This document shows, piece by piece, positions 13,180-55,046 of a stretch of DNA of 64,000 nucleotides. How positions within the stretch are numbered: the first letter of the stretch is position 1; each line of letters opens with the position of its first letter. The position numbers were made by a program, and so were the translations under genes. Origin of the DNA: Aphrocallistes beatrix (taxonomy: Eukaryota > Porifera > Hexactinellida > Sceptrulophora > Aphrocallistidae). The notes below the pieces were generated by a model, which saw only the letters and a program-made list of their open reading frames with translations, searched no databases and was not told the origin of the DNA. The stretch spans positions 1,488,001 through 1,552,000 of the forward strand of contig OY725492.1 of assembly GCA_963281255.1 (NCBI GenBank), in the 5' to 3' direction.

Positions 13180-14495
13180 CAAGCGCGCTTCGCTTGCTTG
13201 CGCTGCGCGATTGGCGGACACTTTGTGTCTGACAGAGGCGCCTGGGGTCACATTGATTAATTATAAGGGAGATAGCATCTCTAAATACGTCTGCCCTACT
13301 GTTTTAATCGATATCGCACGAAAAATCATCAAATTTGTCTATTTTTAAATTTTTGATGCTTAATGATGACGTCATAACAAAGTGCTGAGTCATCATTTTT
13401 TGATGATAGTTGCATCATATGTGAAGTATATTAATATACACATTCTATTAAAATTTCAGCCTTCAATCACCCAAAATGGCTGAGTTAAGGTTGAAGAACT
13501 GAAATTTCTAGTTATAAAAAATGTCGGTCGACAGACCGATAGTGCAGCTCCAGGAAGTGACTCGATGGAACATGAAATGTAAATATCGGAATACATCGGG
13601 AAATACTCATTTTAGGGCATCCTAAGTGTGAAATTTGAATCTACATATTTAATACCCTATAATAGCCGTTGAGAGCTCGCTTTTAGCTTAAAATAAGATT
13701 TTTTTCCAAAAGGTGTCAAAATATGTATATAATCTTAAGTAATAACTCATAAAATATTCACATTATTACTTATAAAATGTGAAAATCGGATTCCACATCT
13801 TAAACTATCCTAGATTAGTCGATGAGAACTCGCTTTAAACTCAAAATGAATATTTTTTCAAAAGGTGTGAAAATATGTATATATCAATATGTTAATAACT
13901 CATAAAATATTCCTATTAATTACTTTAAAAGTGTGAAAATCGGTATCTACATATTAAAATTCCCTATATTAGTCGTTGAGAGCTCGCTTTTAGCATAAAA
14001 TAAGAATTTTTTCAAAAGATGTGAAAATATGTATATATATCAATATGTTAATAACTCATAAAATATTCATATTATTACTTTTAAAGCGCGAAAATCGGAT
14101 TCTACATATTAGAATACCCTACATTAGTCGTTGAGATCTTACTTATATCTTCAAACAAAGCTTTGCAGTGGTGGTGTTAAAATATGAATATATACTTATA
14201 AAAACCGGAAGTGATGACATTTTGCGAAAAAATGTTGACGGTGCACATCTACACCATAATGAGATTCTACATGCAAAATTTGGTAAAAATTGGACTATTA
14301 GATTTCGCAGTAGCGCGCGTACGGACATACATACATATGTACATATTTAGTGGAGCCATACCCAAAAGACCCCCACATGCCAAAGAGATCAGCTTTCTGT
14401 ACCTGGCAATTTCTTCAATCAATTCGTTACAGGCAATTTCTTTAATCAATTCGTTACATATATATACACACATTAATCGAGTTTTAATAGTAAGG
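13180..14495 (-). mobile_element. Non-autonomous Helitron-like element, copy A (1.3 kb)
   Basis: The GC-rich hairpin end (CAAGCGCGCTTCGCTTG) is at the left and TTAATCGAGTTTTAATAGTAAGG at the right, so in transposon orientation it runs right to left. The left border reads CTTG followed by T, as in all copies. The right border lacks the usual initial T. It is longer than its siblings because of the internal tandem array at 13600-14165. The short ORFs inside are not conserved between copies. Confidence 0.72.
13600..14165 (+). repeat. Tandem repeat, ~155-bp unit, about 3.5 copies
   Basis: Each unit contains TAATAACTCATAAAATATTC, GTGAAAATCGG, CTACATATT, GTTGAGAGCTCGCTTTTAGC and AAAAGGTGTGAAAATATGTA. 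The phrase TAATAACTCATAAAATATTC recurs near 13741, 13893 and 14050, giving periods of about 152 and 157 bases. It lies inside Helitron copy A only. Confidence 0.72.
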
Positions 14496-15381: not shown

Positions 15382-35525
<20,144 letters not shown>

Positions 35526-35653: not shown

Positions 35654-36403
35654 CAAGCGCGCTTCGCTTGCTTGCGCTGCGCGGCTGGCGGACACTTTGT
35701 GTCCGCCGGAGGCGCCCTTTAAGCGCCTGTGGTCACAATTGATTAATTATATGGGGGATGACATCTCTAAATACGTCTACCCTACGGTTATAATCGATAT
35801 CGCACGAAAGATCACCAAATTTATCAATTTTAAAAATTTTGATGCGTAATGATGACGTCATAATAAAATGTTGAGTCATCATTTTTTGATGATAGTTGCA
35901 TCATATGTGAGATATGTTAGTTTACAGATTCTATTAAAATTTCAGCCTTCTATCTCCTATAATGGCTGAGTTATGCTCGAATAACTGTATTGGTTAACTT
36001 TTAAAAATGTGACAATGACGTCATAATTCCATGATGAGTCGACATTTTGCTCTGAGCTCAGAACTTAGTGGAGCCATAGCCGAAAGACTTCTACATGCCA
36101 AAAGTCAGCTTTCTGTGCCTGGCAGTTTCTTCAATCAATTCGTTACATATATATATATATATACAGTCGACTCCGCTTAATAGGGTCACTGTTTAATTGG
36201 GTCAACCGCTTAATCGGGCCACTTTTGGCAGGACCGGAATAGCTCCCATACATAGAAGCTAATACAAAATATTTTCGGTTAATAGGGCCCTCCGCATAAT
36301 CGGGGCAAAATGTCCCCTGACCAATGTGACCCTATTAAGCGGAGTCGACTGTATACGTATATATATACACACATACACATTAATCGAGTTTTAATAGTAA
36401 GGA
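35654..36403 (-). mobile_element. Helitron-like element, copy E, with a pogo MITE inside
   Basis: The left hairpin is CAAGCGCGCTTCGCTTGCTT and the right end AATCGAGTTTTAATAGTAAG. Borders read A|TC and CTTG|T on the minus strand. The internal (AT)n tract is split by the MITE at 36162-36353. Confidence 0.8.
36162..36353. mobile_element. Pogo/Tigger-type MITE (TACAGTCGACTCCGC)
   Basis: Perfect inverted ends TACAGTCGACTCCGCTTAAT and ATTAAGCGGAGTCGACTGTA, continuing through AGGGTCAC. TA target inside the AT tract of Helitron E. 192 bp. Confidence 0.88.
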
Positions 36404-42970: not shown

Positions 42971-43686
42971 GTGCATATCAATTTGTTGCTATACTGCCAC
43001 ACTAACATCCTACAAATGTGCTTAGCAATTCGCTACTATCGTGCATATTCATACCTTACAATAGTTATTCTTTTGAGCAATGGTTTAGCCAATTACTCTA
43101 CTCTATCTTTATTTTTTCTATTCTTCAAATGAACCTTTTTGTTATATACCTTTTTTTCGAATTTAATTTCTTTAAATTTGGTCATAATTTATAATTTATT
43201 TCATTTTATATTAAACAAGCGCGCTTTGCTTGTTTGCGGACACATTGTGTCCGCCGGAGGCGGAGGTCACTTGATTTATTATAAGGTAGATAGCATCTCT
43301 AAATATGTGTGTCCTACTGTTATAATTGATAATCGCACGAAAAATCACCTAATTTGTAGATTTTTAAAATTTTGATGCGAAATGATGAGGTCATAAAAGA
43401 GTGATGAGTCATCATCTTTTGATGATAGTTGCATTATAAATGAGGTATATTGATATACACATTCTATTAAAATTTCAGCCTTCTATCACTTAAAATGGTA
43501 GAGTTATAGCCGAAAAACTGAAATTTCTAATAATAAAATAGGTGACAATGACGTCATAATTCCATGATGAGTAGACATTTTCGTCTGAGCTCAGAACTTA
43601 GTGGAGCCATCACCAAAAGACCATCACATGCTAAAAATCAGCTTTCTGTGCTTAGCAGTTTCTTCAACCAATTCGTGACATATATA

Positions 43687-44915
43687 TCCCTACTATTAAA
43701 ACTCAATTAATGTTTGTTTGTATATACTTGTATATATATATATGTTACAGGGTATCTGTAAAATCAGGGTAATTGTAATTACCCTGATTTTTTTAGGGTA
43801 ATTGTAATTACCCTGATTTTTTTAGGGTAATTGTAATTACCCTGGTTCAATCAGGGTAATTGTAATTACCCTGACTTTTTTCAGGGTAATTGTAATTACT
43901 TGTTTTTTTAGGTTAATTATAGTGACCACTCATTGTATAGTGGATCATTTGTATAGGCGCAACTTGGGCCATTTTCACATGTCCATCCAGATTTGCTCAG
44001 TCTGTAATACACAAGTACGGGAAACACAATTTAGCTCACCTAAGAGCAATTGTCCTATTAATAGGATTCCTCAATTGACAGTTGCATTGTAACAGGTAAC
44101 ATTGCCCACCCTGAATTTCCCCCCCTGAATTCGCCCCCTTCCATACTATAAGTTAACAATTATACCACCTAAGTACCATATTAGGAAGTGGAGTTTTCTA
44201 AATGTAATTGTGTAACTTATAAAACTCAACTGGTACATTAATGGGTGTGTTATATGTACTATGTACTATGTATTTTCTGAAATTCTACAAGTTTCAAATA
44301 GGCTGTTAGATGTTCTCATCTAGAAAATTATAATTGAATTTTAACCGGGGAATGGGGGATAAACCAGTTTTATCCCGTCCCATGCTCCCCCACTTATGGA
44401 GGTTATACTGTAATTACAATTACCCTGAAAAAGTCAGGGTAATTACAATTATCCTGATTGAACCAGGGTAATTACAATTACCCTAAAAAAATCAGGGTAA
44501 TTACAATTACCCTGATTTTACAGATGCCCTGTAACATATATATCTGTAACGAATTGATTGAAGAAACTGCCAGGCACAGAAAGCTGATTTTTGGCTATGG
44601 CTCCACTAAGTTCTGAGCTCAGACGAAAATGTCGACTCATCATGGAATTATGACGTCATTGTCACCTTTTTTTATAATTAGAAATTAATATATCTCACAT
44701 ATAATATAACTATCATAAATAAATGATGACTCATCATTACGCATCAAAAAAATTAAAATTAAAAATGTGGTATCGATTATAACAGTAAGACAGACACATT
44801 TAGAGATGTTACCTCCCTTATAATTAATCAATGTGAGCCTAGGTGCCCAACGAGTTCCTCTGGTAGACACAAAGTGTCAGCTAGCCGCGTAGCGCAAGCA
44901 TGCGAAGCGCGTTTG
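43687..44915 (+). mobile_element. Helitron-like element, copy G, nested in F
   Basis: It starts TCCCTACTATTAAAACTCAA directly after ATATA and ends AGCGCGTTTG directly before TATATA. The insertion is therefore exactly between A and T, with no duplication. Orientation is opposite to F. Its own AT tract is occupied by the MITE at 43744-44535. Confidence 0.85.
43744..44535. mobile_element. MITE built of GTAATTACCCTGA palindromes (GTTACAGGG ends)
   Basis: Terminal repeats GTTACAGGGTATCTGTAAAA and TTTTACAGATGCCCTGTAAC are flanked by ATATAT. Inside each end are four to five tandem AGGGTAATTGTAATTACCCT palindromes, with the two arrays mutually inverted. The core (43920-44400) is single-copy and non-coding. 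Confidence 0.85.
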
Positions 44916-45189
44916 TATATATATATATAAACAAATACACATCAATCGTTTTAATAATAGTAAGGATTCATTTATTTTGAATCTTCTCTTGAGAACATGC
45001 CTTTTTAAATCTTTTAGATTAAGTCTCCGGAGCATCTTGCAGTAATGGTTATACTAGTCAATCTATCCTACCTAAATGATATTTCGCAGTACCAAGTCAT
45101 TTTTGATTTTCATGTTTATATTATTACAATTACTTATTTTAGTCATAGTTTGTTTCCTTGGATTTTTTTCATGATATTTACATGATGGC

Positions 45190-54604: not shown

Positions 54605-55046
54605 TACTGCCAAGCACAGAAAGCTGATTTTTGGCATGTGGGAGTCTTTTGGCTATGGCTCCACCAAGTTCCGACCTTAGACGAAAATGTCAATTCATCA
54701 TGGAGTTATGACATCATTCTCACCATTTTTATAATTTGATATTTCAGTTTTTCGACTATAACTCATCCAATTTATGTGATAGAAGGCTGAAATTTTAGTA
54801 GAATGTGAATATTAATGTATCTCACTTATGATACAATTCTCATCAAAAATGATTACCCATCAATTTGTTATGATGTCATCAGTACGTACCAAAAAAAATT
54901 AACGTATCAAAAAAAAATTAAATTTTGTGATTTTTGAATGATATTGATTATAACAATAAGACAAACGTATTTAGAGATGTTATCTACCTTAAAATTAATA
55001 AATGTGAGGCCAGCCTTGCAGCGTAAGCAAGCGAAGCGCGCGCTTG
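54605..55046 (+). mobile_element. Helitron-like element, copy I (5' truncated)
   Basis: It begins ACTGCCAAGCACAGAAAGCT, more diverged than H (for example GATGTCATCAGTACGTACC), and ends GTAAGCAAGCGAAGCGCGCG followed by CTTG|T. It lies head to tail with H. Confidence 0.68.

Follow-up and report, generated by a model that had tools for sequence, protein, structure and literature searches.

Two groups of Helitrons are distinguished, and the canonical elements are described as beginning with TC and ending with CTRR, with a hairpin 10–12 nt from the 3′ end (PMC5148889). In Helraiser, a palindrome 11 nt from the end is assigned a terminator role and read-through is reported, and the same account states that CTTG ends were "also seen with maize Helitrons" (PMC4778049). 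In plants and bats, Helitrons joined head to tail and arrayed in tandem have been described (PMC5876387), and OTU domains are reported for Helentrons and for a subset of Helitrons (PMC4067079, PMC9741609).

The elements analysed here, from the sponge Aphrocallistes beatrix, resemble the bat element Helraiser/Helibat1, which is of the Helitron1 type, in their RepHel protein, 1,456 residues of which can be aligned, including the HUH motif and two tyrosines. According to the published descriptions of Helraiser/Helibat1, the TC start, the target between A and T without duplication, the 3′ palindrome, and the exact head-to-tail joints, known there from Helraiser circles, are also shared (PMC4778049, PMC5876387). 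The two differ in the 3′ end, which is CTTG in the sponge and CTAG in the bat, in the hairpin, whose predicted forms lie 0–1 nt from or overlap the end in the sponge and which lies 11 nt upstream in the bat, and in the C-terminal OTU domain and N-terminal repeats of the sponge protein. The fungal HELPO2 of Pleurotus ostreatus, likened here by description and not by sequence, is reported to have an AT target and a CTTG 3′ end (PMC4289320). The Csup_Hel1 insect Helitrons are described as having abundant short copies, a target between A and T, and a non-CTRR 3′ end (CTRY); they belong to another sequence family, and their hairpin is placed upstream of the 3′ end (PMC6544945). Helentrons/Helitron2 elements belong to the same rolling-circle RepHel class, some with OTU domains, but are characterized in the cited descriptions by T-run targets, asymmetric inverted repeats, and, in Helentrons, an AP endonuclease (PMC5148889, PMC4067079), none of which was found in the sponge family.

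CTTG ends, tandem arrays, and OTU domains are thus each already in print. The sponge elements form a new family within the canonical Helitrons, abundant and well documented, and not a new kind of element, the newness resting on the literature on Helitrons and sponges, where nothing was judged relevant. The known picture of Helitron integration is unchanged by them. They provide a clean high-copy case, with thousands of end matches, uninterrupted RepHel frames, near-identical empty sites, and countable arrays, and therefore a good natural system for studying how the Helitron 3′ terminator stops or is read through.

Copies in the window and the nest of F and G

The window, that is, the whole stretch of 64,000 nucleotides analysed (G000:C6:1488001-1552000), was compared with the 100.5-Mb genome of 28 contigs. 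A secretin-type GPCR and an NHL-repeat protein also point to an animal host. Non-autonomous copies of the family are often 480–580 bp long. The features of the window discussed below are as follows.

13629..14065, plus strand: repeat corresponding to the empty site of the gene-bearing copy A2 (three alignments) and of insertion L077
27761..28305, minus strand: 545-bp non-autonomous copy, A before TCCTTACTATT and T after GCGCGCTTG
34197..34742, minus strand: the downstream one of two units joined head to tail, with TCCTTACTATT at 34742 and CTTG at 34197
34743..35249, minus strand: the upstream one of these two units, whose CTTG end at 34743 abuts the TCC of the next unit; far end approximate, 5′ end unrecognised
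35654..36403, minus strand: 750-bp non-autonomous copy, A before TCCTTACTATT and T after GCGCGCTTG
43216..44966, minus strand: copy F, non-autonomous Helitron, 5′ TCCTTACTATTATTAAAAC at 44966 and 3′ GCGCGCTTG at 43216
43687..44915, plus strand: copy G, non-autonomous Helitron, inside an (AT)n run of F
about 43743-44536, no strand assigned: inverted-repeat element of a separate repeat family, inside G

T follows all 13 recognisable 3′ ends in the window, although the end at 55044 was matched two bases out of register. A precedes four of the six recognisable 5′ starts: 28305, 36403, and that of F at 44966 on the minus strand, and 43687 on the plus strand. The remaining two are 14496 (minus), without TC, and 34742 (minus), which is preceded by G because it abuts the CTTG of another copy at a head-to-tail junction. 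The original prediction that all other copies stand between A and T had missed this head-to-tail start. The repeat at 13629-14065 is built of units of about 150 bp, and related repeats occur in L004 and next to A2; other copies of it carry Helitron insertions (A2 and L077) at the same AT-rich spot.

The predicted nesting of G within F is real. F, whose 5′ T is at 44966 and 3′ G at 43216, is interrupted by G and aligns with a 545-bp copy only outside G, and other family copies continue across the insertion point of G without G. The start of G, TCCCTACTATTAAAAC at 43687, is preceded by ACATATATA, and its end, GCGCGTTTG at 44915, is followed by TATATATATATAAAC; the terminus is GTTTG, not CTTG. 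This arrangement had been taken as proof of insertion between A and T with no duplicated bases. The site reads ACATATATA, G, TATATATATATAAAC, with TA, TATA, or TATATA present on both sides of G. Since G lies in an (AT)n run, a duplication of any of these would be invisible; the absence of duplicated bases is unreadable here, and the nest fits the rule without proving it. The support for the rule comes from outside the nest.

About 790 bp of the 1,229 bp of G is the inverted-repeat element, the arms of which (TGTTACAGGG and CCCTGTAACA; 43731-43869 and 44410-44548) are 90% complementary. When compared with a typical 545-bp copy, G aligned only at its positions 1–62 and 850–1229. The inverted-repeat element thus interrupts G as G interrupts F, so that three elements are nested. 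In a genome search using G as the query, many matches fell in the inverted-repeat middle part. This element (43743-44536) holds inner copies of AGGGTAATTGTAATTACCCT and has many strong matches in the genome.

Flanking bases and empty sites

A genome search with the 5′ pattern TCCTTACTATTAAAACTCRATTAATG, allowing up to two mismatches, found 5,789 matches, and the reversed-pattern control found none. Among 30 loci cut out from this search, A precedes TC in 29; at the remaining locus, L020, which is a head-to-tail joint, the base is G. When exact termini were used, A was in front of the 5′ 19-mer in 4,087 of 4,291 cases (another base in 204), and T followed the 3′ end in 4,738 of 4,828 (another base in 90); the chance expectation for A or T alone is about one third (window G+C, 36.6%). 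One hundred of the 204 non-A 5′ ends were listed and comprised 69 with G, 19 with T, and 12 with C. At least 26 of the 204 are not explicable as head-to-tail joints, indicating that the rule of insertion between A and T has exceptions. Repeated 5′ termini were seen at L021:2278-2523, where eight 5′ ends, each after A, occur within 250 bp at intervals of about 28–40 bp.

Empty sites were sought by joining both flanks of an insertion and searching for matches spanning the junction. For a set of 36 insertions, searched in a non-genome-wide set of sequences, up to three spanning matches per junction were considered, with at least 78% identity and enough sequence complexity required. Fifteen insertions had a spanning match and 21 had none. 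Four of the 15 were readable outside simple repeat; the other spanning matches were AT-rich runs, the element's own end, or gapped. The empty site of L036 aligned without gaps (94.8% over 193 bases), and that of the two-copy array L076 reads GAATA/TTATAG, the slash marking the junction (86.6% over 202 columns). The empty site of L016 lies in another family member and reads TGTTA/TAATC. For L077 (81.5% over 130 columns), of the two paralogues among the matches listed, one shows no gap at the junction and the second is gapped there. The gene-bearing copy A2 gave seven empty alignments, none of them gapped within 5 bases of the junction and four gapless within about 15.

In addition, nine junctions were submitted in one query to a genome-wide search, in which the best 40 of 1,031 candidates were scored, so that the counts are lower bounds. 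The gene-bearing copy A3, for which no empty site was found in the non-genome-wide sequence set, gave at least 11 rows (no net length change in eight, −1 in two, and +3 in one), and the two-copy array L078 gave at least 30 (no net change in 26, −1 in two, and −2 in two); a net change between −2 and +3 was thus seen in seven of these 41 spanning rows. Two rows of each were checked base by base and were gap-free, the A3 site being CCCTACA/TGATTA. For the other seven junctions, no spanning match was present among the best 40 of the 1,031 candidates, and the non-genome-wide sequence set contained none for the gene-bearing copy A1 together with its follow-on unit. As read from these alignments, insertion at the readable empty sites, including those of A2 and A3, is between A and T with no net duplication or loss of the target; the target duplication named beforehand as refuting the original prediction did not appear there.

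These sites also bear on the idea of a cut-and-paste TIR/DDE element (MITE), the TA-type target duplication of which would be masked by AT-rich flanks. The F/G site and many other flanks are indeed (AT)n runs, in which a TA on either flank looks the same as a duplication. However, the non-repetitive sites of A3 and L076 given above show no duplication, the two ends, TCCTTACTATT and GCGCGCTTG, do not form an inverted-repeat pair, and the partner copies encode RepHel, which together make this explanation scarcely credible.

Gene-bearing copies and classification

The anticipated Rep/helicase partner with the same ends was found in the form of three gene-bearing copies of about 9.5 kb. The partner found encodes RepHel, and the second outcome named beforehand as refuting, a DDE transposase, did not appear among these copies.

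C7:523431 to 513922: gene-bearing copy A1, 9.5–9.6 kb, frame of 1,947 aa
C2:4508787 to 4499201: gene-bearing copy A2, 9.5–9.6 kb, frame of 1,970 aa
C2:3994039 to 4003543: gene-bearing copy A3, 9.5–9.6 kb, frame of 1,959 aa

A1 was read end to end; for A2 and A3, the reading covered the two termini plus the Rep region. The 5′ end of A1 and A2 is TCTTATATATTAAAACTC, preceded by A; in A3, A precedes the 5′ TCCTTACTATTAAAACTC and T follows the 3′ GCGCGCTTG. The last 121–151 columns of A1 and A3 are 83–91% identical to a short copy, as are the first 480 bp of A3 at 90%. In the Rep region, the nucleotide identity between the A1/A2 lineage and the A3 lineage is about 71%. The A1-type 5′ end, with up to two mismatches, has 1,248 matches (control, 2), and the PF14214 (Helitron_like_N) profile has 106 matches in the genome and none in any of the 14 control genomes. 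The stretch L086:1040-1523, which is the first 480 bp of A3, resembles most of a short copy. Judging by sequence, the short copies look as if they were deletion derivatives of A3-like elements, or as if A3 had started out within a short copy and run past the terminator of that copy.

The A1 protein contains the Pfam domains Helitron_like_N, PIF1, Pif1_2B, and, at the C-terminus, OTU. Its match to Helraiser (7lcc) scores 1,053 bits over the 1,456 residues (219-1674 versus 45-1495), and the HUH motif and both tyrosines are aligned with those of Helraiser in the alignment, which was inspected upstream of the helicase. The RepHel frame at L069:2327-8167 has N-terminal repeats of 23 residues (69 bp), the number of which varies among copies.

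F and G almost certainly belong, as non-autonomous copies, to a Helitron family of the canonical (Helitron1) type, the RepHel copies of about 9.5 kb sharing their ends. This reading is based on the flanking bases, the empty sites, the RepHel copies with the same ends, the domains and Helraiser match of the protein, and the head-to-tail junctions described below. The empty sites, the RepHel copies, and the junctions, not the nest, strongly support the predicted Helitron integration between A and T. Among the Helitron1 features, a RepHel with HUH, two tyrosines, and a Pif1-type helicase was found in the A1 protein, a 5′ TC in A1, A2, A3, and the short copies, and insertion between A and T without target duplication. 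The 3′ CTRR was not found as such, the end being CTTG in 58 of 76 copies and CTAG in one. We do not regard this departure as disqualifying, because CTTG is in print for HELPO2 and is mentioned for maize. The points counting against a canonical Helitron are this CTTG outside CTRR, predicted hairpins at 0–1 nt or overlapping the end, compared with about 11 nt, the exceptions to the rule of insertion between A and T, the seven spanning rows with a net length change, and the lack of greater similarity among units of one array, described below.

The OTU domain at the C-terminus would suit a Helitron2/Helentron-type element, since such domains are described for Helentrons (PMC4067079). In opposition to this, the target is between A and T and not TT or T-rich, the elements start with TC and have no terminal inverted repeats, and the protein matches Helraiser, a Helitron1, from end to end. 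No AP endonuclease was matched by Pfam in the A1 frame, and the 3-kb 3′ part of A2 contains no ORF longer than 133 aa beside the RepHel frame. A Helitron2/Helentron assignment is thus very improbable.

By analogy with the work on Helraiser, the Rep protein of this Helitron1-type family would nick between A and TC, and the helicase would peel one strand away. The 3′ hairpin may then signal the second cut, after CTTG, and the freed strand would circularise and join between A and T. Head-to-tail arrays would arise when the terminator is missed or the donor is multimeric.

Head-to-tail arrays and the 3′ end

A joint of GCGCTTG abutting TCCTTACTATTAAAACTC, up to two mismatches being allowed, was matched 178 times in the genome and not at all in the control. 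At A1, CACTTG directly adjoins TCTTATATATT, the start of a different, 618-bp unit. The two-copy arrays L076 and L078 each occupy one site between A and T. In the eight tandems in which both units are 350–800 bp, the units of the same tandem are 94.2% similar and those of different tandems 94.4% (28 pairs); by position across tandems, the values are 94.8% for first with first, 94.4% for second with second, and 93.9% for first with second. The units of one tandem were considered as proof of a single rolling-circle origin, and this was rejected, since similarity within a tandem is no higher than between tandems.

The arrays might instead have arisen by recombination or separate insertions and not be multimeric rolling-circle products. 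The equal similarities within and between tandems and the different unit after A1 are in line with this origin. A burst of near-simultaneous copies gives equal similarities too, however, and hence unit similarity does not decide the origin of the arrays. Moreover, the joints are exactly CTTG followed by TC, and the lack of an A or T in between means that separate insertions between A and T do not explain them; L076 and L078 each fill a single such site. We therefore consider recombination or separate insertions unlikely, and multimeric rolling-circle products remain our preferred reading.

The 3′ ends were examined in 76 copies anchored upstream (50 distinct), leaving out L001, which is the same DNA as the window. 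The 58 CTTG ends comprised 55 GCTTG and three ACTTG; seven ends were out of register, one was CTAG, and 10 were others. T was at the next position in 74 of the 76. A second set, also without L001, gave 75 T and one C, a count that is biased because only TG ends with an upstream match were kept. The CTTG end that had been predicted is the common one, though G itself ends in GTTTG.

Two mutually exclusive hairpins can form at the terminus: the flush hairpin CAAGCG/CGCTTG that had been predicted, and a competitor, GCGCG..CGC/GCG..CGCGC, which stops at CTTG. Both terminal folds sit 0–1 nt from, or overlap, CTTG. In the 50 distinct 34-mers, 264 of 300 cells of the flush hairpin are paired, with all six pairs in 29 of the 50, and 312 of 350 cells of the competitor, with all seven pairs in 20 of the 50. 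The outer stem of the competitor taken alone (173/200, 0.865) does not exceed the value obtained when it is slid by +2 columns (0.875), and the pair counts therefore do not decide between the hairpins. DNA folding energy prefers the competitor, both in the common 31-nt end (−9.5 kcal/mol, 80% of the ensemble) and in the A1/A2 end (−7.5 kcal/mol, 93%). Neither terminal fold beats shuffled sequences, as 62 (common end) and 71 (A1/A2 end) of 200 shuffles fold equally well.

The flush hairpin is present in the commonest end, and F (last 80 nt) folds flush, the left arm of the competitor being absent in F. Flush folding was also obtained for the 28 terminal nt of the common end, a stretch in which the left arm of the competitor is cut off. 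In A1 and A2, one pair of the flush hairpin is broken. The flush hairpin was accordingly rejected as an established terminator, the competitor being energetically better for the commonest and A1/A2 ends while F folds flush. The proposal that CTTG and the flush hairpin define an unusual subfamily is not well supported, given that CTTG is in print and the competing fold is the better one for the commonest end, although F folds flush.

A two-state terminator may be imagined, in which the two hairpins have bases in common and exclude each other, the flush one burying CTTG in its stem and the competitor leaving it exposed for cleavage, and leaky switching would lead to read-through and to head-to-tail arrays that integrate as units at one site between A and T. 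We regard this model as a long shot.

A further palindrome, GGCGGACAC-AAA-GTGTCCGCC, lies about 33 nt upstream of the 3′ end, with a z score of −6.3 and none of 200 shuffles folding as well. In 62 copies, its outermost pair was G-C in 42 and T-A in six.
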